From positions 62,001 through 126,000 of the forward strand of contig JAUILA010000003.1 of the NCBI GenBank assembly GCA_030432655.1: a DNA stretch of 64,000 nucleotides, written 5' to 3'. Below, in pieces: positions 27,173 through 38,312 of the stretch (position 1 is its first letter; every line of letters starts with the position of its first letter). The position numbers were made by a program, and so were the translations under genes. The DNA is from Bacteroidia bacterium. Its GTDB lineage: Bacteria; Bacteroidota; Bacteroidia; Cytophagales; Cyclobacteriaceae. Under the pieces are notes generated by a model. The model searched no databases. It worked only from the letters and a program-made list of their open reading frames with translations, and was not told the origin of the DNA.

Positions 27173-28042
27173 TCAGGAGGCACCTGTTTTTATGGCGCCC
27201 TGACGTATGATCTTTTTACTTTCACGTCCTTTAATAATTCCTTTGTCACGGTCGATCCAGACGATGGAGCCGGTCGGACAGCGCTGTATAGGGTCGGGGG
27301 ACTGAAGTCCTGCGTACTTATAATTGATGACCGGCAGGTTGTTCCTGATCACAATCAGGTCGCCAGGGGCATCCATGGCACACTTGCCACAGGCAGTACA
27401 ACCTACTTCACAATCTTCGAGGACCCCGTCTCCCGCCTCCAGGTTTTTACACGCCACCCATAACCGGTTGCTTTCCGGCTGTAAAGAGAACAGGTCTTTC
27501 GGACAAATCGCGACGCAATCACCGCAGGCGGTGCACTTCTCTTCGTCCACTACGGGTATGGAAAATTCATTCATGGTGATGGCGTCGAAATCACAGACCG
27601 CTTCACAATCACCCAGACCGAGGCAACCCCAGAAACAGGCTTTCCCCCCACCGGAAACCAGTGAAGCTGCCTGGCATGATTTCAGGCCCTGGTAACCGGC
27701 CTTATTGCGGGCAACGTTGATTCCGCCTGCACAAGCCAGCCTCGCCACCTTTTTCTCTTCAGCACCTGCATCCACACCCAGGTAGGTGGCAATGGCCTCC
27801 CTGCCTTCCGGGCTGCTGACAGTACATTTGCCGGGCAACACCTTTCCCTCCACCAGTGCCTCCGCGAAAGGACGGCATCCGGGAAAACCGCAGGCACCAC
27901 AATTGGCGTGCGGCAGCATCTCCTCCACCGTATCAATTCGCGGATCTTCGTAGACATACAGTTTCTTATTGGCAAGAAGAAGCATTAGTGCCAGAAGCAG
28001 TGTTAGTCCGCCCAGGGTTGCCAGTGCAATCAGAATGGTCAT
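27173..28042 (-). CDS. rnfB: Rnf complex subunit RnfB
   Basis: Membrane-anchored iron-sulfur subunit that accepts electrons from reduced ferredoxin. It has 289 residues: an N-terminal helix (about 1-24), then the Fe4S4 domain NCGACGFPGC (about residues 47-56), then CLGLGDCEAVC, CTACGDCVAICPKD and CTACGKCAMDAPGD ferredoxin-like motifs and a final RCPTGSI. Some cluster positions lack the canonical fourth Cys within the motif. Unlike in most Rnf operons, where rnfB is next to rnfA/rnfC, here it is last, behind the reductase gene. Confidence 0.93.
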   Translation of the reverse strand: MTILIALATLGGLTLLLALMLLLANKKLYVYEDPRIDTVEEMLPHANCGACGFPGCRPFAEALVEGKVLPGKCTVSSPEGREAIATYLGVDAGAEEKKVARLACAGGINVARNKAGYQGLKSCQAASLVSGGGKACFWGCLGLGDCEAVCDFDAITMNEFSIPVVDEEKCTACGDCVAICPKDLFSLQPESNRLWVACKNLEAGDGVLEDCEVGCTACGKCAMDAPGDLIVIRNNLPVINYKYAGLQSPDPIQRCPTGSIVWIDRDKGIIKGRESKKIIRQGAIKTGAS

Positions 28043-28052
28043 TTCACCTCCG

Positions 28053-28910
28053 TTAATAGATCACTTCCGCCCATTTATTGCCAGCGACCAGTTCGGCTTT
28101 CCGGGTTGCCCATTTTTCCTTGGATCCCATGATGGTGGAAAAAGCCTTGTCCAGATTCTCCTTGACCTTCTCATAGCCGGCGATGTAAATATGGGTACTG
28201 GATTTTGAAAGCATTTCGAGTATCTCTTCTGCGCGTTCTTCAATCGCGTAATCCAGGAGGATTGGATCTGACCAGTGCGGACGGGGGCTCAGCGCATGAA
28301 ATGCCTTGAACGTATCCTTGTCGTAGTAATTGGTCAGGTCACCATCCTTGTTATTTAGATAAAGAAGTTCCAGTCCGCTACGGGCCCCGTAGAACAGCCT
28401 GATTTTACCAGTCCAGTCGTTCACATTATGGTAAATATGCTTGATAAACGCCCGGAAAGGCGCAATGCCTGTACCCATTCCCACCAGGATCAGGTCTGAT
28501 GAATGATCCTCCGGAATAGTAAAAGGCAGCTCAAAAGGACCGGTAATGGTGATCTGATCGCCTACTTCACGATCGCAAAGGTAGTTGGAACCTATACCAT
28601 CGATTCGCTCCCCGCTGAATTCATCAATATACGAACAGCGTTTCACCAGCATGGTCAGTTTAGTCTTCCCTTTCTTCGTTTCAGGAAGATCCGCCACACT
28701 GTATAACCTGTGATGGAATTCATTCCCGAACTGGTCGGGCCTGTCCACCAGGACTCCGAAACTCTGATCCACCTCGCAGATAAAATCAGGTTCCTGCACT
28801 TCCAGCATAATCTCCCGAACCTCGTCGGTATTGGGAGGTGTAAGCCGTTTTGTCTTACGGACAGTTGCCTTGAACTGTCTGTCGGTCTTGTAATCAGCTA
28901 AGTGTGCCAT
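28053..28910 (-). CDS. Plant-type ferredoxin-NAD(P)+ reductase
   Basis: 285 residues from the ATG at 28910 (MAHLADYKTD); a longer frame starting at 29015 would run across the upstream gene. FAD-binding RLYSVAD, the nucleotide-binding GMGTGIAPFRAF, FYGARSGLELLYL, the HIYIAGYEKVKENLDKAF end region, and a C-terminal aromatic residue (AEVIY) are those of the FNR family with a carboxy-terminal Tyr that stacks on the flavin. It sits inside the Rnf operon, 1 base after the NqrM-like gene and 10 bases before rnfB, so it probably offers a second route for ferredoxin electrons, to NADP+ or NAD+. Confidence 0.85.
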   Translation of the reverse strand: MAHLADYKTDRQFKATVRKTKRLTPPNTDEVREIMLEVQEPDFICEVDQSFGVLVDRPDQFGNEFHHRLYSVADLPETKKGKTKLTMLVKRCSYIDEFSGERIDGIGSNYLCDREVGDQITITGPFELPFTIPEDHSSDLILVGMGTGIAPFRAFIKHIYHNVNDWTGKIRLFYGARSGLELLYLNNKDGDLTNYYDKDTFKAFHALSPRPHWSDPILLDYAIEERAEEILEMLSKSSTHIYIAGYEKVKENLDKAFSTIMGSKEKWATRKAELVAGNKWAEVIY

Positions 28911-28911
28911 A

Positions 28912-29127
28912 TCATTGAATATTAAATTTCTTTTTTTCTGAGGTCCTGGTTTTACAGGCGGTTGTACAACCACAATTTCCACATGACCTCCTGCCGGCCA
29001 GGACATCCGGATCATTTATATGGTCGTGAAAAACATTCTTCCACATATGCTGAACCAATGCCCAGCCAAGTACAATCAGTACTACGAAGAGAATGGCCGC
29101 CAGGTATGTGAGAATTGTCGTCGTCAT
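28912..29127 (-). CDS. Small membrane protein with four cysteines, NqrM-like
   Basis: 71 residues: one membrane helix (about 5-27) followed by a soluble tail with RRSCGNCGCTTACKTRT, four Cys as C-x2-C-x-C-x3-C, and a basic end. The layout matches NqrM (DUF539), a one-helix protein with a cysteine tail needed to build the Fe site between NqrD and NqrE of Na+-NQR. RnfA and RnfE are the homologues of NqrE and NqrD, and rnfA lies just 12 bases upstream, so an Rnf-specific iron-delivery factor is a reasonable inference. Cys spacing differs from the NqrM I recall, so a related but distinct family is possible. Confidence 0.65.
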   Translation of the reverse strand: MTTTILTYLAAILFVVLIVLGWALVQHMWKNVFHDHINDPDVLAGRRSCGNCGCTTACKTRTSEKKKFNIQ

Positions 29128-29139
29128 TATTCGTTCTGT

Positions 29140-29721
29140 TTAATTACCAAGTCCGGAAAATCCCATAAAAGTCAGGGACAAAATACCCGCGATCAACAAT
29201 GTGATTACGGTACCGCGAACAACTTTCGGAGCCTCCGTGAAGCCCAGTTGCTCCCGCAGGCCGGCCATCAGCACCAGGGCCAGGGTAAACCCGGCTCCGG
29301 CTCCCAGCGCATATACCAGGCTCTGCAGAAAATCATATCCTTTGTTTGTCTGAAAAAGTGCCAGTCCCAGGATCGCACAATTGGTGGTGATCAGCGGAAG
29401 GAATATCCCCAGTGCCCGGAACAGGGCAGGGCTCATTTTCCGGATAAACATTTCCACCAGCTGTACGGTGGATGCGATGACCACGATGTAGCTGATCAGC
29501 TGGAGAAAAGGAGCATTCACGGCCACCAGCAGTGCATGGATCCCATAGGCACACATGGATGATATCAGCATCACAAATGTGACCGCCGCGCCCATCTTGG
29601 AAGCTGTGTCCAGCTTACCGGAAACCCCGAGAAAGGGACAGATGCCCAGGAAGTAGGCCAAAACAAAATTATTGACCAGGCAGGCATTGATAAATATGTA
29701 CCACATCGATTCAGTGTTCAT
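29140..29721 (-). CDS. rnfA: Rnf complex subunit RnfA
   Basis: Integral subunit, 193 residues, six helices. Diagnostic stretches are NNFVLAYFLGICPFLGVSGK at the N-terminus and ITTNCAILGLALF near residue 110, each with the Cys that helps coordinate the intramembrane iron site shared with RnfE. The start overlaps the rnfE stop by 11 bases. Confidence 0.95.
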   Translation of the reverse strand: MNTESMWYIFINACLVNNFVLAYFLGICPFLGVSGKLDTASKMGAAVTFVMLISSMCAYGIHALLVAVNAPFLQLISYIVVIASTVQLVEMFIRKMSPALFRALGIFLPLITTNCAILGLALFQTNKGYDFLQSLVYALGAGAGFTLALVLMAGLREQLGFTEAPKVVRGTVITLLIAGILSLTFMGFSGLGN

Positions 29722-30349
29722 GACGTTCTTTCCTTTCCTTGTATAAATTGAACACCAGTAACCAGATTGCCAGGGTAAAAAACCCTCCGGCGGGCAGGAT
29801 CATGACAATCCAGGCCTGAAAACCTTCCGGGAACACCCGGAGATTGAACAGTGTACCATTACCAAGAATCTCGCGAACTGCACCAAGACAGAAAAGAGCA
29901 ATTACAAAACCAAAGCCCATCCCCAACGCATCCAGCATTGATTTTCCTACGGTATTTTTAGATGCAAAGGCCTCAGCACGACTCAGGATAAGGCAATTGA
30001 CCACGATCAGGGAAATAAAAGCCCCCAGACTTTTGTGAAGGTCCACACTGATCGCCTGGATCGCGTAATCCGTCATGGTTACAAAAGTGGCAATGATGAG
30101 AATGTAGGAAGCAATGCGTACCTGCTTTGGTATAAAATTCCTGAGTGAAGACACCAGGACGTTTGACATAAGCAGTACAAAAGCGGTTGCCAGTCCCATG
30201 GCCAGCGCGTTGATGGCCGTATTCGATACCGCCAGCACGGGACACATGCCCAGTACCTGTACAAATACAGGATTCTCCTTCCACAATCCTTTCAGGAAAG
30301 TGTCCATGGACTGATCCGGCAGGTCGCTATGTTGAATCTTGCTGTTCAT
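29711..30349 (-). CDS. rnfE: Rnf complex subunit RnfE
   Basis: Integral subunit paralogous to RnfA and in inverted topology, 212 residues. The Cys-bearing motifs are VLGMCPVLAVSNTAINAL and LIVVNCLILSRAEAFA. The start overlaps the rnfG stop by 4 bases. Confidence 0.94.
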   Translation of the reverse strand: MNSKIQHSDLPDQSMDTFLKGLWKENPVFVQVLGMCPVLAVSNTAINALAMGLATAFVLLMSNVLVSSLRNFIPKQVRIASYILIIATFVTMTDYAIQAISVDLHKSLGAFISLIVVNCLILSRAEAFASKNTVGKSMLDALGMGFGFVIALFCLGAVREILGNGTLFNLRVFPEGFQAWIVMILPAGGFFTLAIWLLVFNLYKERKERHEH

Positions 30350-31032
30350 TGCTGATCGCTGAATAAATTCATTTCTGCTTTTATTTTCGGGAGAATGACC
30401 GCGGCACTTTCATTGATAATGTTTCCGATTGCCCTGGAGGATATCGTGGCCCCGGTGATCCCGTCTATTTCCCAAGGGTTGGATTTAGTACCGCTCTTTA
30501 CGGTGACCACATCCTGTCTTAAAGCCTCATCAGTCTCGTCCAGTGAGACATCCAGCCCGTTAAAATTCTCCAGGAAAGTGACGTCTTTCTCGATCTTGTC
30601 ACCCAGGCCAGGTGTTTCCTTGCTTTCCAGTACATAAAACCCGACAATCTCCTCCCTGACCGGATCGTACCCGTACAGGATACGAATGACATCCGCATAC
30701 CCCTGACCACTTGCCTCGATGGCAAACCCTTTCAACTGTCCAGCGTCGTTATAACCGGCGAAGATCTGCGGACGGGTCGGGTCCGGAACAGCAGGTTCCG
30801 TGAATTCTCCCTGCGCTGTAAGCTGAAACGCCCGGGTCGAGGAAATATCCGGAACCACCCTGAATATGGCTTCCTGCAGTGCCTGTGCCCGCAACCGGCT
30901 GATCCGTTCACTTGTCCCTTCGTAGGTCAGGACAATCAGCAGGGCACACATGACACCTATACCCACCATGGCAATGAGCATCTTTCTGCTGCCTGCTTCC
31001 TGCGATGCCTGTATGGTCTGTTGTCCGTTCAT
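30346..31032 (-). CDS. rnfG: Rnf complex subunit RnfG (covalent FMN)
   Basis: One N-terminal helix (about 18-38) and a periplasmic FMN-binding domain, 228 residues. The flavinylation motif is DGITGATISSRAIGN, where ApbE attaches FMN to the Thr of GAT. An upstream conserved element is SKETPGLGDKIEKD. No apbE gene lies in the window, so the transferase must be elsewhere. Start overlaps rnfD stop by 4 bases. Confidence 0.94.
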   Translation of the reverse strand: MNGQQTIQASQEAGSRKMLIAMVGIGVMCALLIVLTYEGTSERISRLRAQALQEAIFRVVPDISSTRAFQLTAQGEFTEPAVPDPTRPQIFAGYNDAGQLKGFAIEASGQGYADVIRILYGYDPVREEIVGFYVLESKETPGLGDKIEKDVTFLENFNGLDVSLDETDEALRQDVVTVKSGTKSNPWEIDGITGATISSRAIGNIINESAAVILPKIKAEMNLFSDQQ

Positions 31033-32036
31033 TTCTTTTTGGTTCCGTAAACTCGTGGTTGTATAAGCCGGTCAATTTGCGGGCTTAGCGCGTTGCCAAG
31101 GAGAATGGCGTACATAACGCCCTCGGGGAGACCGCCCCAGATCCTGATTACAACGACAATGGAACCGATAAATATTCCATAGATCACCACACCCGCCTGG
31201 GTAATGGGCGACCCCACCATATCACTGGCCATAAAAACAGCCCCCAGCATAAGTCCGCCGGAAAACAGCATAAATCCCGGGGTCGGATAGACCTCCGGAT
31301 CAACAAGGTTGAGAATTCCGCTCAGAACGAATACCGTAAGCAGAATGGTAAAGGGAATTCTCCAGTTCATCATTTTCCGGACAACAAGATACAGACCTCC
31401 CAGCAGGATCAGTACCGCACTGGTTTCGCCGGTTGAACCGCTTATAAGTCCAAGGGCGAGGTCGGCCGAATCCGTTACCACATGATCAAACTTAAATGCG
31501 CTGAGGGGAGTGGCCCCGGAAGCACCGTCGAATACAGGCTGCGCAAAAGGAAAGGTAAGTACTGATCCCTCGATGGAGGTGAAACGGTTTCCGGCCATGG
31601 CCGGGTACCAGGTGGTGATCGCAATGGGAAAAGCCGCCTGAAGTACCGCCCGGCCCACCAGTGCCGGATTGAACATATTGTAGCCGAGCCCGCCAAAGAT
31701 GAATTTCCCCAGGGCGATTCCGATCACCCCACCGAGAAACGCCATCCAGAGCGGGAAGGCCGGGGGCAGGGTAAGACCGAGCAGTATCCCGGTTATTACC
31801 GCCGACCAGTCACCCACTGTAGTTTCTTTTCCTGATAACCTGCAAAGAACATGTTCTGTACTGACGGTTGCGATAACGGCTGAAAGAATTACAAGCAAGG
31901 CATTCAATCCGAATGAAAACACCGCAAAACCCACTACCGGCAACATGGCAATGACCACATTGAGCATGATCACCCCGGTGCTCATTCCACGGGTCAGGTG
32001 TGGCGAGGTGCTGATATTGAGGGTCTTGCTAAGCAT
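31029..32036 (-). CDS. rnfD: Rnf complex subunit RnfD (covalent FMN)
   Basis: Polytopic subunit of 335 residues that is homologous to NqrB, with about nine to ten helices. The flavinylation site is in DGASGATPLSAFK (about residue 180), and GYNMFNPALVGRAVL and MASDMVGSPITQAG are family signatures. It begins 8 bases inside the 3' end of rnfC. RnfD with RnfG forms the route for electrons across the membrane. Confidence 0.95.
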   Translation of the reverse strand: MLSKTLNISTSPHLTRGMSTGVIMLNVVIAMLPVVGFAVFSFGLNALLVILSAVIATVSTEHVLCRLSGKETTVGDWSAVITGILLGLTLPPAFPLWMAFLGGVIGIALGKFIFGGLGYNMFNPALVGRAVLQAAFPIAITTWYPAMAGNRFTSIEGSVLTFPFAQPVFDGASGATPLSAFKFDHVVTDSADLALGLISGSTGETSAVLILLGGLYLVVRKMMNWRIPFTILLTVFVLSGILNLVDPEVYPTPGFMLFSGGLMLGAVFMASDMVGSPITQAGVVIYGIFIGSIVVVIRIWGGLPEGVMYAILLGNALSPQIDRLIQPRVYGTKKK

Positions 32037-33378
32037 CTTCAGATTCCCGTTTCATTTGAATCTTCTTTCGGATAATTGACTTGGACAGCCTGAAATACTG
32101 GACCAGGGGAATATGTGAGGGACACACGTAGGTACACGAGCCACACTCAAAGCAATCCATCAGGTGGAAGGACTCCGCCATCGTCTTGTAATCTTCAAAT
32201 TTTGCCAGTATGCCCAGTTTTGAGGGATTCAGTGATAGCGGGCAGGCATCCACACATTCGCCGCATTTGATACAGGGATACACCTTTTCCGACCGTGTCA
32301 CATCCTTTTCCCGGAATACCACAATCCCGGAAGTTCCTTTGACGATGGAAATATCCAGGTTTGACACGGCCATTCCCATCATGGGCCCTCCCATGTATAC
32401 TTCGCTGAAATCTTCATACACACCTACCTCCTCAAGTACAAACCGGAGTGGTGTTCCGACCGGAATCAGGTAATTACCCTTTTTTATCACCCCTGGTCCC
32501 GTTATGGTTACGACCCGCTCCTGGATGCCGCGGCCATGCGGGAGCAGCCTGCCAATTTCTGCAGAGGTGGCCACATTAACCACCACACATTTAACATCGA
32601 TCGGCAATCCGCCGGACGGGACTTCTCTTCCCAGCAGGGAGGTGATCAGCATTTTTTCCGAGCCCTGGGGATATTTAACCGGGACAACGCGGATAGAAAC
32701 CGGCAGGTCTTCCGGCACCTGCGAAGCAAGGTGATCGGCCGCGTCCTGCTTGTTGGCTTCTATTCCGATAATTACCTTTCCGGCACCTGTAATCTTCAGA
32801 AGATAGCGGATTCCCGTAAATATATCTTCCGCCTGCTCCAGCATCACCCGGTGATCCGTGGTCAGAAAAGGTTCACATTCGATGCCGTTCAGGATTAAAT
32901 ATTCACACTCCTTATCATCCGGAACCTTGAGTTTCACATGGGTGGGAAAAGCAGCCCCGCCAAGTCCGACAATGCCGGCATCCTGTATTGCCTTCAGCAT
33001 TTCCTCCGGGGTTGCCTCCAGCGAAACCGGAGTTCCCTCCATTACTTCCTGACCGGATGACGGAAATGGTTCAATAAAAACACCAGGGATCATTTTGCCG
33101 GAAACCCCCGGCACATTGGCGAGCTTTCTAACCCGGCCCGAAACGGGGGCATGCATTGGCACGGAGACATAGCCATCGGCTTCAGCAATAAGCTGACCCC
33201 GGACCACCTCCTGTCCTTCACGGACAATTGGTTTGGCCGGGGCACCTATGTTCTGGGACAACGGGAGAATGATCAGCGGAGCAAAAGGAAACTGGCGAAT
33301 GCTTAATTTATTCGTCTCCTCCTTATGCTCCGGCGGATGAATTCCGTGTCTGAAGGTATTTTTCTTTACTCCCCACAC
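32029..33378 (-). CDS. rnfC: Rnf complex subunit RnfC
   Basis: NADH/FMN and Fe4S4 subunit, 449 residues. The N-terminal part has a biotinyl-like hammerhead (GAPAKPIVREGQEVVRGQL); the flavin/NADH site includes GIVGLGGAAFPTHVKL; the C-terminal domain has two ferredoxin motifs, CIKCGECVDACPLSLNP and CFECGSCTYVCPSHIP. It lacks the long C-terminal repeats of the enterobacterial protein. The gene starts 2 bases after the PFOR stop, so PFOR and Rnf are on one message. Confidence 0.95.
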   Translation of the reverse strand: MWGVKKNTFRHGIHPPEHKEETNKLSIRQFPFAPLIILPLSQNIGAPAKPIVREGQEVVRGQLIAEADGYVSVPMHAPVSGRVRKLANVPGVSGKMIPGVFIEPFPSSGQEVMEGTPVSLEATPEEMLKAIQDAGIVGLGGAAFPTHVKLKVPDDKECEYLILNGIECEPFLTTDHRVMLEQAEDIFTGIRYLLKITGAGKVIIGIEANKQDAADHLASQVPEDLPVSIRVVPVKYPQGSEKMLITSLLGREVPSGGLPIDVKCVVVNVATSAEIGRLLPHGRGIQERVVTITGPGVIKKGNYLIPVGTPLRFVLEEVGVYEDFSEVYMGGPMMGMAVSNLDISIVKGTSGIVVFREKDVTRSEKVYPCIKCGECVDACPLSLNPSKLGILAKFEDYKTMAESFHLMDCFECGSCTYVCPSHIPLVQYFRLSKSIIRKKIQMKRESEDA

Positions 33379-33380
33379 GG

Positions 33381-36300
33381 CTAGTTGTATTTTTCACCCC
33401 TCTTGATCCATTTTTCAATGTCCTTTTCGCTTCTGTCTGCCGGAAGTCCCGGGTGGATCACCCGTGCCGTACATTTTTCCGCCGCCTTGACCAGGTCACT
33501 GTAGGGTCCGCCGTCCGGATTTTTTATGTAGGCTTTCTTATCGGCATTGTATGCGAAAATATTAGAATTGAGCTTTGTGCATTCATCACAGGCAGTACAC
33601 TCCTCCGTTTCGATCCAGGGCGCCATGTAATCACCCTTTGCTTCGGGAGCCGCTGATTCTGGCTGCTTCGTTGCGGTTCCGTTGCTGGCCGGAGCGGCAC
33701 TTACTGCCGGTACCGCCAGTGAGGCGAGTCCCTCTCCGTTGCCACCTGCAAGCTGCATCAGGCCCTGGGAGATCCTGCCCACCACTTCTGCCCGGATTCT
33801 TCCTTCCATATCCTCTTCTTTTGGCAGTTCAGGTTTATAGCCTGAAATTCCCCTCAGCATGATCCAGAAGTCCCTTCGCTCCTCACATGAATCCACGATC
33901 GTCTTATCGACCAGTACCCTGTTGAGATGCTGACTCCTGTCAACCGCCCAGATGAAGGGGAATTTACCTTCTCTTTCATCTTCAGCAAGTTCAAGGAATT
34001 CAGCCAGCACCACCATATTTTCATTCCAGGTATCCCTTGGCGCTTTCCGGAAATGTTTTCTGAACCGCGCCTCGGTCAGGGCAAAGTCTGCAAATGTCAG
34101 GGCTACTTCCATGGACTTTTCGCGTCCATTCTCCTTGTACTTAAGCTTATACGTCGGCCACAGCTTATCAATGTCCGGGTTTCCGTCCAGGTCAAATGCT
34201 TCCTCGGCTGTTTTGCCGCGGTCAGGATTAAACCGGAAGAGCGGATAGGCACGGGATTCCATGGCCAGTTTCGCCTGGTGTTCACCCATATCATCTCCGA
34301 CACCGTGTTCCGGCTGGCAGGTGGTATAGAGATTGAACAAAGCCGGGCGGCGGGCCATCAGACCATCGATAAACCCTTCGATCATATGACTGGCATTGGC
34401 CAGACTTGACTGCATAACGTAGGTATTCCGGTGGGCCATGCCAATGAGTCCGATTTCCTTGCGTGGTTCAGGCTTGCCCTTCCAAACTTTTCCGAACTGC
34501 GCCATATCCGATACCTGACCGATGAAACCTGAGGTACAGGCTTGTCCGCCGGTATTTGAATACACCTGCGTATCCACCACGATCACTTTGATCGGTTTGC
34601 CGGAAGCCATCATTCTCGACAGGTTCTGGAATCCGATATCGTACATGGCTCCGTCACCACCGAGGGCAACCACAGGCGGACAGAGCTGCCATTCTTCATC
34701 GGTAAACTGATTCCAGTTGAAATAAGTGAAGAAATCGCGCTGTCCGTCTGCTTTGTATTCTCCCTTCAGCTCCAGTTCAGCCTTACGTATCAGTTTAAAT
34801 CCCTCCGCCATCTTGGCCATATGACCTTCGAAAATGCCCATTGCCATCGACGGGGAATCCTGGAACAGGTGATTGGCCCATGGGAACGGATACGGGTTGT
34901 AAGGATAGGTACTTCCCCAAACGGAGGTACATCCTGTGGCATTGGTCATACCCATAGTCGAACGGCCCTGACCGGTGGTGCCGGTGGTATATTTCCACTT
35001 CAACCGCTTCAATCCGCTTAGAATATGGGTCATTTCACGCAGCCATTCCTGATCAATTGGTTCAGATCCGTGCTCCGTTTCCAGCTTCGAGGCGATCCCT
35101 GACATGGTCAGGTCGCTTGTGTTGGTATCGGAAATGATCTTCGACATCATGTCGGTATCCGTCACCTTCACGGTATCAAGCAGGGTCAGCTGAATATGCT
35201 TTTCGAAACGATCGATCAGGTCTTCAAGGTGCTTCACGTGCTTTTTGATCCGCGGCTGCATGAGTGATTCCACGGTTGCCACAAAAAGGTGAACCACCGT
35301 CTTTTCTGAGCAACCCAGGCAGGCCCCGTCGCCACTTGCAAATTTCAGGTAGGCGTCTTTGTTCAGGAGAATGGTTTCCAGCGGACCGATTTTCTCCTCG
35401 AGGTCATCAATGCGGTTATATTTATCCGGTGTATTCGGCAGATCACCCCAGAAGTCCCATTCCCGGCGAAGCCTTGAAATGGTATCTTCGGTCTGGGTTA
35501 TCGGGCGCAGGGCGTCATCCCCGCATACATTTATACATTCCATACAGCCTTTGCAGGAATTCGGATTGATAGTGATGCTGAACAAGCCTCCGTTATTGGG
35601 CTGGTCCTTCTCCATCAGGTCAAAGTATGGCCTGGTCAGGGCGAACTGGAAATCTCCAAGCTCTTCCCTGAACCATTCCATTTCTTCCGCAAAACGTTTA
35701 TCGGATTTATTCTCTTCAATGGCCTGATCAAGCGCATCATTGATCAGGTTGTTTACTGAAGCATCATCGTGAGGCTCCCTGAACAGCTCCCGGATAGCTG
35801 GTTCCATTTTACGAACCTGTTTGGGAAGGAATTCGAGTTTCTCATGATTCTTTTTAACACGTTTGACAACGGTATCCAGCACATCGGACAATTCGCTGAC
35901 CAGTCCGGGGATAGCGGTATCCGGACAAACAGTATAGCAATTGCCACAGGCGGTACAGTTTTCAGGAATCCATTCGGGATGCTCAAACCGGATTCCGGTC
36001 ATATCCCGGAACAGTCCGGTTACGGCCGGCATAACACTCAGCCCGATAAACGGGTCGGTGAGGTTGTCATTGCCCATTCCCTGGACGTAGAAATTTCCGG
36101 TTTGCTCCCAGAAGCGATGGATATCGCTGAGACTGGACTGACTTTTCGGGATATCGCGAATCAGCGACGGTACCGGCAAAGGCGTTTGTCCGTTCGATGA
36201 TGCATTCTCTTTATCGGAAAGCACCTTCTCCTTAATTTCATGAACCTCATCAAAGCCGCGTCTTACCACGCGCATGTTATCATCCACCACGCGCTGACCC

Positions 36301-38312
36301 TTGCTTCCGAACTTATGCTGAACCTGGTCTTCAATAGCTTTGAGCAGCGCCTGTTCGGACATACCAGTTTTCTCCATCAATGGTGACGCCGCGAAAAAGG
36401 CTCCCTGGAAAGCGATACCCTGCATTCTGAGCTGAAGTTCAGGATCCGTAGCTTCTTCCCTGGCAATCCGGAATCCATCGATATAATGGACATGAATCTC
36501 CTTGTCAATAATCAGTTGCTGATATTTACGCGGGATATCGGCCCATACTTCTTCAGGTTTTTTCTTATCACTCTGGATGATAAAACATCCGCCCTTCTTC
36601 AGTCCGGCCAGTGCATTGGTATGCTTGAATACATTGGGATCCGGAGAAAGGACAACGTCCACAAAGTAGTACTCGCAATTGACCCGAATTGGTTCAGGTG
36701 CAGCAGCAAGATAGTAGGTTGTAGGTTGTCCTTTCTTTTCCGAGCCATATTTCGGGTTAGCCTTAATATCATAACCCAGCAGGTCAAACAATGTCATCGC
36801 CAGGTTTTTCCCGGTGGTGATCATTCCCCATCCGCCAATCGAGTGAAAACGCACTGTTACCGCATCCTTTGGCATCAGGTCCGGATTTTCAGTACCGTGA
36901 ACTGCAAGTTCCTTCACTTTTGGATAGGACAATGCTATTGTTTCCTGGTGCGCCCGTTGTTTCGGGCTCAGGGGAGTGTCCCGTATAAAATCGATGGACA
37001 GGTAAAATCTTTTCTTACGTTTCCCGTCCGGGAGCATATTTTCGATTGCCCCGATTATTCCTTCCGGCTGAAGGTCGCGGCTTCCCATCCCGAATGAACC
37101 TGAGAAAAGCGGCGGCAGATCAGCGGAATTATAGGAAGTCAGCTCCGGATAAGGAACGTCTTTCTTATTTGAACCATTCTCCAGACACTTAGTAAGAACC
37201 GACCGTACCTCCCGCATGATCGGGGGATCTTCTGCCAGCGGCTGATCAAGACGCTCGAGGATGGCAACACCTTTCTTTCCCTTGAGAATTTTACCGATCA
37301 TGTCAGCCGGAAATGGCCTGAACATAACCAGGTCAACCACTCCCACTTTGATGCCCCTGGTCTCGCGCAGGTAGTCAGCGACTGCTTCAGCACTGGGGAT
37401 CACACTGCCCTGTCCCAGGATGAGGTAGTCGGCATCCTCTGCGCGGTATGTCATTACCCGGTTGTAGCGACGGCCGGTCAGGGAATAATATTCGTCGAAG
37501 GCCTGATCTGCCAGTTCGCGGATATGATCAAAGAAGAAGGGCCGCTGGGCGGCAACACTCTGCATATAGGAATCCTGGTTCTGAACAATCCCTGCCATCA
37601 CCGGATTATCCACGTCCCAAAGTTCAGGTATCCGGCGGCGGGTATCACCGTAGAGGATCCGCTGGGCCGGGGTCGGTGTATCAATGATATCATCGGGACG
37701 CCCCAGGAATTCACGGATAAGTTCGCGCTCCGGAAGGTCAAGTGATTCGATCAGGTGGGTAGTCAGAAACCCATCCTGAGCGACGATACCCGGATTTAAG
37801 GCAAGTTCCGCGATGCGGTGAGCGATAATATTAAGATCGGCCACATGCTGTGCGTTTTTCGCAAACAATTGAAAAAAGCCGGTATCATCTATGGCATGAT
37901 AGTCATCGTGTCCGGCATGCACATTCAGGGTTGACTTGGTCATTGCCCGTGCCCCGATATTCAGCACATAGGTCAGGCGTTTGCCCACTGCGGCATAGAG
38001 AGACTCGTGCATGTAGGCGATGCCCTGGCCTGACGAAAAATTGGCGGCCCGAAGACCGGTCATGGAAAGGCCTGCGGTTACGGCGGCAGCAGCATGTTCA
38101 CCCTCCGGCTCAATAAATATGAGCGGACGGTCAGAAATATTAAGGTGCCCTTTGGCAGCGGCTTCCGCCCAATATTCACCCATTTGTGTGGACGGGGTAA
38201 TGGGATAAGCACCAGCGGCATCGGAAGATTCTCTTTCACACATAATGGCGGCAGTATTGCCATCCATTGCAACCCGGGCTCCCGGGTATTTAACTTTGTT
38301 TTTCTTATCCAT
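33381..38312 (-). CDS. Giant pyruvate:ferredoxin oxidoreductase with fused C-terminal ferredoxin
   Basis: 1643 residues, against about 1170-1200 for the usual single-chain NifJ. Order of parts: alpha domain (about 1-300, with AGAYPITPSTQMGE, EPEGEHAAAAVTAGLS and FSSGQGIAYMHESLY), domain II with FRPFPADMI, gamma domain (VRFHSIGGWGMITTGKNLA, near 490), a two-cluster ferredoxin insert (CTACGNCYTVCPDTA and CKGCMECINVCGDDA, about 800-940) with long helical spacers, the proximal-cluster motif CLGCSEKT, TPP domain (LGGDGAMYDIG and NTGGQAC, about 1210-1260). After an Ala/Pro-rich linker comes an extra ferredoxin (CTACDECTKLNSN ... EKCTARVIHPG, about 1560-1620). It oxidatively decarboxylates a 2-oxoacid, probably pyruvate; substrate choice is inferred. 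Confidence 0.9.
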   Translation of the reverse strand: MDKKNKVKYPGARVAMDGNTAAIMCERESSDAAGAYPITPSTQMGEYWAEAAAKGHLNISDRPLIFIEPEGEHAAAAVTAGLSMTGLRAANFSSGQGIAYMHESLYAAVGKRLTYVLNIGARAMTKSTLNVHAGHDDYHAIDDTGFFQLFAKNAQHVADLNIIAHRIAELALNPGIVAQDGFLTTHLIESLDLPERELIREFLGRPDDIIDTPTPAQRILYGDTRRRIPELWDVDNPVMAGIVQNQDSYMQSVAAQRPFFFDHIRELADQAFDEYYSLTGRRYNRVMTYRAEDADYLILGQGSVIPSAEAVADYLRETRGIKVGVVDLVMFRPFPADMIGKILKGKKGVAILERLDQPLAEDPPIMREVRSVLTKCLENGSNKKDVPYPELTSYNSADLPPLFSGSFGMGSRDLQPEGIIGAIENMLPDGKRKKRFYLSIDFIRDTPLSPKQRAHQETIALSYPKVKELAVHGTENPDLMPKDAVTVRFHSIGGWGMITTGKNLAMTLFDLLGYDIKANPKYGSEKKGQPTTYYLAAAPEPIRVNCEYYFVDVVLSPDPNVFKHTNALAGLKKGGCFIIQSDKKKPEEVWADIPRKYQQLIIDKEIHVHYIDGFRIAREEATDPELQLRMQGIAFQGAFFAASPLMEKTGMSEQALLKAIEDQVQHKFGSKGQRVVDDNMRVVRRGFDEVHEIKEKVLSDKENASSNGQTPLPVPSLIRDIPKSQSSLSDIHRFWEQTGNFYVQGMGNDNLTDPFIGLSVMPAVTGLFRDMTGIRFEHPEWIPENCTACGNCYTVCPDTAIPGLVSELSDVLDTVVKRVKKNHEKLEFLPKQVRKMEPAIRELFREPHDDASVNNLINDALDQAIEENKSDKRFAEEMEWFREELGDFQFALTRPYFDLMEKDQPNNGGLFSITINPNSCKGCMECINVCGDDALRPITQTEDTISRLRREWDFWGDLPNTPDKYNRIDDLEEKIGPLETILLNKDAYLKFASGDGACLGCSEKTVVHLFVATVESLMQPRIKKHVKHLEDLIDRFEKHIQLTLLDTVKVTDTDMMSKIISDTNTSDLTMSGIASKLETEHGSEPIDQEWLREMTHILSGLKRLKWKYTTGTTGQGRSTMGMTNATGCTSVWGSTYPYNPYPFPWANHLFQDSPSMAMGIFEGHMAKMAEGFKLIRKAELELKGEYKADGQRDFFTYFNWNQFTDEEWQLCPPVVALGGDGAMYDIGFQNLSRMMASGKPIKVIVVDTQVYSNTGGQACTSGFIGQVSDMAQFGKVWKGKPEPRKEIGLIGMAHRNTYVMQSSLANASHMIEGFIDGLMARRPALFNLYTTCQPEHGVGDDMGEHQAKLAMESRAYPLFRFNPDRGKTAEEAFDLDGNPDIDKLWPTYKLKYKENGREKSMEVALTFADFALTEARFRKHFRKAPRDTWNENMVVLAEFLELAEDEREGKFPFIWAVDRSQHLNRVLVDKTIVDSCEERRDFWIMLRGISGYKPELPKEEDMEGRIRAEVVGRISQGLMQLAGGNGEGLASLAVPAVSAAPASNGTATKQPESAAPEAKGDYMAPWIETEECTACDECTKLNSNIFAYNADKKAYIKNPDGGPYSDLVKAAEKCTARVIHPGLPADRSEKDIEKWIKRGEKYN

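Follow-up and report, generated by a model that had tools for sequence, protein, structure and literature searches.

The intramembrane [2Fe-2S] cluster of NQR seems to need the protein NqrM, according to the excerpts available from a 2025 review (PMC12174285); for the insertion of the intramembrane [2Fe-2S] cluster of Rnf, the same excerpts name no counterpart. In the available part of a cryo-EM study of Rnf, a [2Fe2S]-like density is described between RnfA and RnfE (PMC11889175). Rnf1 of Azotobacter vinelandii has one product more than the six core subunits, RnfH, which the review excerpts give as a cytoplasmic subunit without a redox cofactor (PMC12174285). Here we analysed a small gene directly after rnfA in a stretch of 64,000 nucleotides (the window). 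Its product, too, comes in addition to the core subunits but is, unlike RnfH, a predicted membrane protein with a Cys tail. It resembles NqrM (DUF539, PF04400) in being small, with an N-terminal helix, a basic stretch and a Cys tail, and in being encoded with its complex; the NqrD/NqrE pair is homologous to RnfE/RnfA. With the FeoB-associated proteins (PF12669) it shares one helix, a short tail of loosely spaced Cys residues and a weak profile similarity. In the literature searched (titles, abstracts and term counts) we found no description of a small Cys protein encoded after rnfA. For P. gingivalis, the tabulated part of PMC10434189 has rnf and a FeoB-associated protein in separate rows with far-apart locus tags.

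The small gene belongs to a minus-strand block in the order PFOR-like gene, rnfC, rnfD, rnfG, rnfE, rnfA, small gene, FNR-like gene, rnfB (Table 1). As originally predicted, the product has one helix and a four-Cys tail and is encoded directly after rnfA: translation yields 71 residues and a stop, the start lies 12 nt past the rnfA stop, and AlphaFold2 (mean pLDDT 69.7) places a single helix at residues 2-32, followed by a low-confidence tail. A single nucleotide separates the end of the gene from the ATG of the FNR-like gene. The Cys-rich tail, CGNCGCTTAC, holds C49, C52, C54 and C58 in the pattern C49-x2-C-x-C-x3-C58. Basic residues lie past the helix, and the tail is therefore probably cytoplasmic (positive-inside rule).

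Table 1. The Rnf block of the window, listed from the small gene towards the PFOR-like gene and then towards rnfB
Feature	Position	Strand	Evidence and remarks
Small one-helix Cys-tail gene, 71 aa	28912-29127	-	Translation, AlphaFold2, codon comparison
rnfA, clade form	29140-29721	-	TIGR01943 241.3 bits, cut-off 229.3; candidate cluster ligands C28, C115
rnfE	29711-30349	-	TIGR01948 243.8 bits, above cut-off
rnfG	30346-31032	-	TIGR01947 101.3 bits, just below cut-off 102; PF04205 above cut-off
rnfD	31029-32036	-	TIGR01946 311 bits
rnfC	32029-33378	-	TIGR01945 500.7 bits
Gene of 1643 aa, which we take to be pyruvate:ferredoxin oxidoreductase-like (PFOR-like), directly before rnfC	33381-38312	-	
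FNR-like flavoprotein (ferredoxin-NADP reductase-like, PetH/BoxA-like)	28053-28910	-	PF00175 above cut-off; NCBIfam BoxA, PetH and NqrF models match, each below its own cut-off
rnfB, 289-aa form	27173-28042	-	TIGR01944 91.8 bits, above cut-off

The open reading frame is a genuine gene and evolves under purifying selection. Among its 15 nearest homologues, pN was lower than pS in all 105 pairs, and the four pairs closest to each other had a dN/dS of ≈ 0.05-0.18. TGT and TGC codons both occur in every one of the four Cys columns of these homologues, and the third column has Asn in one row.

To see how the gene is distributed, we turned to 98 genomes from the family and order to which the window belongs; 19 of them hold rnfA of two related types, 21 genes in all. 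A small one-helix Cys-tail protein is encoded after every one of the 21; an FNR gene is next to 15, and for the other six none was found in the fetched stretch. Six further relatives have a canonical Rnf, with the small gene after rnfA in none of them. Most of the 98 give weaker rnfA-model matches at the level of NqrE. The predicted linkage to Rnf and its conservation are borne out here: all 15 genomes with a small-protein match at E ≤ 0.001 possess an rnfA of the clade defined below, and the small Cys-tail gene occurred within 500 nt of nqrE at none of nine scorable NqrE-type loci (ten examined). Six of these nine were confirmed as nqrABCDE, among them the window genome's own operon, for which no nqrF was found. 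In one relative, placed in the window's family, the clade Rnf operon is plasmid-borne: its contig agrees in length and coordinates with the 1.07-Mb plasmid pPP1 of Persicobacter psychrovividus (NZ_AP025293.1). Across an even draw of 395 Bacteroidota genomes the family was rare, with two clear matches (window genome included), both adjoining rnfA; 15 candidates per genome were scored, rare members may be missed, and rnfA was not counted. One further match, at 0.0002, contained two stops and had no rnfA nearby, and was dropped.

A wider view came from an RnfA-alignment scan of species genomes, which pointed to at least 590 loci; the best 80 were used. Within 500 nt after rnfA, we looked for an open reading frame of 40-110 residues with one helix and at least three Cys within 30 residues of tail. 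Such a frame followed 29 of the 78 scorable rnfA genes, compared with a background of 4/347 for other rnf or FNR genes and 18/2465 for other 540-nt windows at the same 80 loci. The filter missed a truncated locus (L074, a negative among the 78) and a two-Cys relative (L260), both of which were read by eye; L081 and L083 fell outside the 78 because of contig ends, and in L083 the beginning of the gene is visible. In a quick RnfA tree (106 rows, an NqrE outgroup, SH-aLRT support only), every positive row fell inside one clade (SH-aLRT 100). This clade comprises 53 rows, of which 46 are positive, four negative and three unscored at contig ends (L074, L081 and L083). The small gene thus follows rnfA for 46 of 50 scorable RnfA inside the clade versus 0/50 outside, and none of 500 label shuffles was as clustered as the real labels. 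The kind of neighbourhood survey suggested along with the original prediction thus ties the small gene to the clade; with all 50 RnfA outside it lacking such a gene behind rnfA, a service to Rnf in general is not supported. Four loci with the small gene (L040, L043, L046 and L048) were left out of the tree, L041 and L078 are one and the same locus, and L072, one of five with three-Cys tails, may have a broken frame. Among 50 small reading frames located behind rnfA, the overlap with the rnfA stop is 4 nt in 11 and 1 nt in four.

The positive rows of the tree come from Bacteroidota, Calditrichota, Spirochaetota, Planctomycetota, Kiritimatiellota, Gemmatimonadota, Acidobacteriota and Pseudomonadota; a Myxococcota member (L251, from the same genome as L106) stands outside the tree. 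This makes nine phyla by position and layout, and six by the family profile described below. The small gene is a hallmark of one RnfA clade found in several phyla; Flavivirga, Seonamhaeicola and Persicobacter are examples of cultivable carriers of this Rnf. Four clade RnfA (L080, L085, L095 and L106) are without an adjacent small gene. For two of them, L080 and L106, a second clade operon in the same genome carries it. The clade is not set apart by the candidate cluster ligands of RnfA: C28 and C115 (window numbering) are kept in 50/50 clade rows, 50/50 other rows and 3/3 NqrE rows, and so the clade is the same as the others in these ligands. Since canonical RnfA keeps them without the small gene, the site can be built without it, and the protein is not a maturation factor for Rnf in general; oxygen, OFOR coupling or structure may be behind a need for it in the clade. 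Two other RnfA positions do separate the groups, residue 101 (Phe in 49/50 clade rows, Tyr in 49/50 others) and residue 125 (Thr in 48/50 clade rows); the small protein may make contact there.

Eight proteobacterial genomes that hold both a canonical and a clade Rnf allowed the two types to be compared within single cells' gene sets. Behind canonical rnfA (order rnfA-rnfB-rnfC) the small gene was found in 0/13 cases, and behind clade rnfA in 10/10, nine by the filter and one by eye. The last is L260, a relative with two tail Cys that the profile search also finds and that is itself a profile row. Eight of the ten clade loci are also on the RnfA tree.

We fetched 13 stretches with clade loci. 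As they were picked largely for having rnfB at a distance of about 10 kb, their operon order is not that of a random sample. In 12 of them rnfB, an OFOR gene and rnfCDGEA occur together; the thirteenth is ended by its contig. Relatives of the PFOR-like gene are next to rnfC in 12/13 loci, with 50-78% identity in nine of the 12 stretches and as a more distant OFOR in three, and an FNR gene was seen in six of the 12. The small protein therefore belongs to an OFOR-linked Rnf type. This arrangement, present in several phyla, suggests a module leading from 2-oxoacids to Rnf, to which FNR, in those operons that have it, would add an NADP branch. That the small protein serves another product of the operon, such as the OFOR or the FNR-like protein, would agree with the presence of an OFOR gene in the same block at 12 of 13 loci; we give this reading very little credence, because the small gene tracks rnfA rather than the OFOR gene in any gene order and FNR is missing from half of the 12 stretches.

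Using a family profile made from 20 diverse members, we searched 38 genomes, 32 with a clade rnfA and six with a fetched rnfA outside the clade. In 25 genomes, a total of 31 matches had E < 1e-7, and each of them lies immediately behind a clade rnfA; 18 are profile rows and 13 are not. No strong match appeared in the six genomes with an rnfA outside the clade. The profile-positive phyla are Bacteroidota, Calditrichota, Spirochaetota, Kiritimatiellota, Myxococcota and Pseudomonadota. Seven of the 32 clade genomes were without a strong match. One is that of L085; the other six (L088, L098, L101, L102, L108 and L109, from Gemmatimonadota, Acidobacteriota and one Planctomycetaceae) have a layout-like frame after rnfA, whose product may be too divergent for the profile or may be an analogue. 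We disregarded nine matches with E values of 0.004-0.075: five fall in frames at least 268 residues long, two (G486:C4 and G487:C92) are a Flavobacterial protein described below, and two (G510 and G487:C14) were left unread. The tail is variable, with 23 Cys patterns in 49 Rnf-linked sequences; the same spacing recurs in 19 of the 49, the close relatives. At the end of the helix, 35 of the 49 carry W-x-x-[VILF]-Q.

The likeness to NqrM turned out to be one of layout (one helix, basic stretch and Cys tail); it does not extend to the NqrM/DUF539 models. In the profile search that had been proposed as a check, none of 31 members scanned (21 including the window protein, and ten further) matched PF04400 up to E 10, with the proviso that HMMER filters drop most matches above about 0.1 and that the cut-off is 22 bits. 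As a positive control, five of five proteobacterial NQR records scored above this cut-off and neither of two Bacteroidota records did (plasmid-labelled pieces). PF04400 was likewise found in 0/395 Bacteroidota genomes, a draw with no positive among its control genomes; of the clade and control genomes that the RnfA scan had supplied, three of 34 had matches. A weak PF04400 match in one genome (G021) was dropped after three frames had been read without finding a helix-plus-tail protein.

The sequence GSCGG after the helix is typical of NqrM. It was present in 11 of 11 NqrM gathered from NQR operons or by PF04400, one of which, an unannotated Aeromonas protein, had been picked by GSCGG itself, versus 0/49 Rnf-linked sequences; W-x-x-[VILF]-Q, conversely, was unseen in the NqrM compared. 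Membership of the small protein in NqrM was rejected on three counts: the missing PF04400 match, the missing GSCGG and a position behind rnfA instead of with NQR. A true but highly divergent NqrM that moved into the Rnf operon would explain the similar layout and length and the CxCxxxC that the enterobacterial NqrM examined here shares with most close relatives of the window protein. We regard this as very improbable. Besides the profile result, the similarity appears confined to the helix (score 26.7 against NqrM, tail-shuffled mean 19.6, with one of 60 shuffles as high), and Thiothrix caldifontis, whose genome also encodes a canonical Rnf, possesses a PF04400 NqrM close to an NqrE-type gene as well as the Rnf-linked protein.

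Other NqrM-like sequences were noted along the way. NqrE-type genes are common among the relatives, yet PF04400 is absent from the Bacteroidota draw and no Cys-tail gene follows nqrE at the scored loci. Two Flavobacteria encode, at an unlinked place, a one-helix protein of 67 aa whose tail reads GTC...CGFCG...C (L308:9855-10055 and L309:9732-9929); the two are 82% identical and PF04400-negative, and are possibly a divergent NqrM. The absence of PF04400 is therefore no proof that Bacteroidota are without an NqrM-like protein. In two Planctomycetaceae (L166 and L167) open frames of 487 and 448 residues, possibly fusion proteins, have the NqrM motif close to their end.

Scans with Pfam (31 members) and NCBIfam (21 members) gave no model above its cut-off. 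By profile comparison the small protein appears slightly nearer to the FeoB-associated Cys-rich proteins than to NqrM, while staying below the PF12669 cut-off: its profile scored 39.6 against FeoB_associated, with a tail-shuffled mean of 19.2 and 0/60 shuffles as high, and NqrM and FeoB-associated profiles scored 25.1 against each other, with 5/60 tail shuffles as high. We considered whether a distant FeoB-associated-type protein had been co-opted for iron handling near Rnf without being specific to the RnfA/RnfE site. The higher score would favour this, as would the weak PF12669 matches, seen in two of 21 members (best E 0.0093) and three of ten further ones, the best being that of the L108 protein (23.9 bits, E 4.9e-5). 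All of these stay below the cut-off of 27 bits, so that 0/31 members exceed it, and the hhalign alignment with FeoB_associated (probability 94.6 over 31 columns) covers the helix and basic segment with the Cys motif outside. Moreover, 24 of 59 relatives have PF12669 matches that are on other contigs than rnfA or 30 kb and more away from it, and the window's own genome has none. On this balance the co-option appears improbable. The profile scores reflect the helix and hence neither prove nor exclude a distant kinship with either family.

That the small protein is a dedicated accessory protein of this Rnf clade is strongly supported. How it might act we can propose by analogy. Its single helix would hold the protein in the inner membrane next to RnfA, and the basic segment and the Cys tail would face the cytoplasm. 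Most likely the tail would bind iron or a [2Fe-2S] precursor transiently and pass it to the RnfA/RnfE membrane site, formed by C28 and C115 of RnfA and their RnfE counterparts. The small protein would then do for the clade Rnf what NqrM does for Na+-NQR, possibly having arisen separately. Topology, metal binding and delivery to RnfA/RnfE are steps that we infer, and we consider the chances evenly balanced that this clade accessory delivers iron or a [2Fe-2S] precursor in the manner of NqrM.

The main rival, which we hold to be rather unlikely, is that the protein is a permanent small subunit of Rnf whose Cys tail carries a metal or cluster that relays electrons from RnfB or the FNR-like protein to RnfA/RnfE, or stabilizes the complex. 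Linkage cannot tell a maturation factor from a subunit. In favour of the rival, the small gene adjoins and partly overlaps rnfA, in an operon that has its own OFOR and often an FNR, and A. vinelandii Rnf has the extra subunit RnfH mentioned in the review excerpts (PMC12174285). The constant Cys spacing among the close relatives would also fit a fixed cluster. Across the family, however, both the number and the spacing of the tail Cys vary, which is unusual for an electron-transferring cluster bound by a single chain; such looseness is easier to reconcile with a transient carrier than with a fixed redox centre. Because of these varied patterns we favour delivery of iron or a precursor over a permanent subunit. 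The two clade operons that lack the gene in genomes with a further copy elsewhere speak against a subunit as well, and are as a trans-acting factor would allow.

More tentatively, and with somewhat less confidence than in delivery as such, we propose that the protein is a maturation factor for the RnfA/RnfE cluster of this clade alone, of an origin separate from that of NqrM, and that it marks the OFOR-Rnf(-FNR) operon across phyla; other Rnf complexes and the PF04400-negative NQR of Bacteroidota would then have to make this site by another route. What is new here would be an NqrM-like design serving one Rnf clade. The restriction to that clade suggests why work on canonical Rnf would miss such a factor. 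With a candidate that consists of one gene, is confined to a clade and comes with natural controls in the same genomes, the question of how Rnf is matured becomes directly testable, and the small gene itself marks a recognisable, OFOR-linked type of Rnf.
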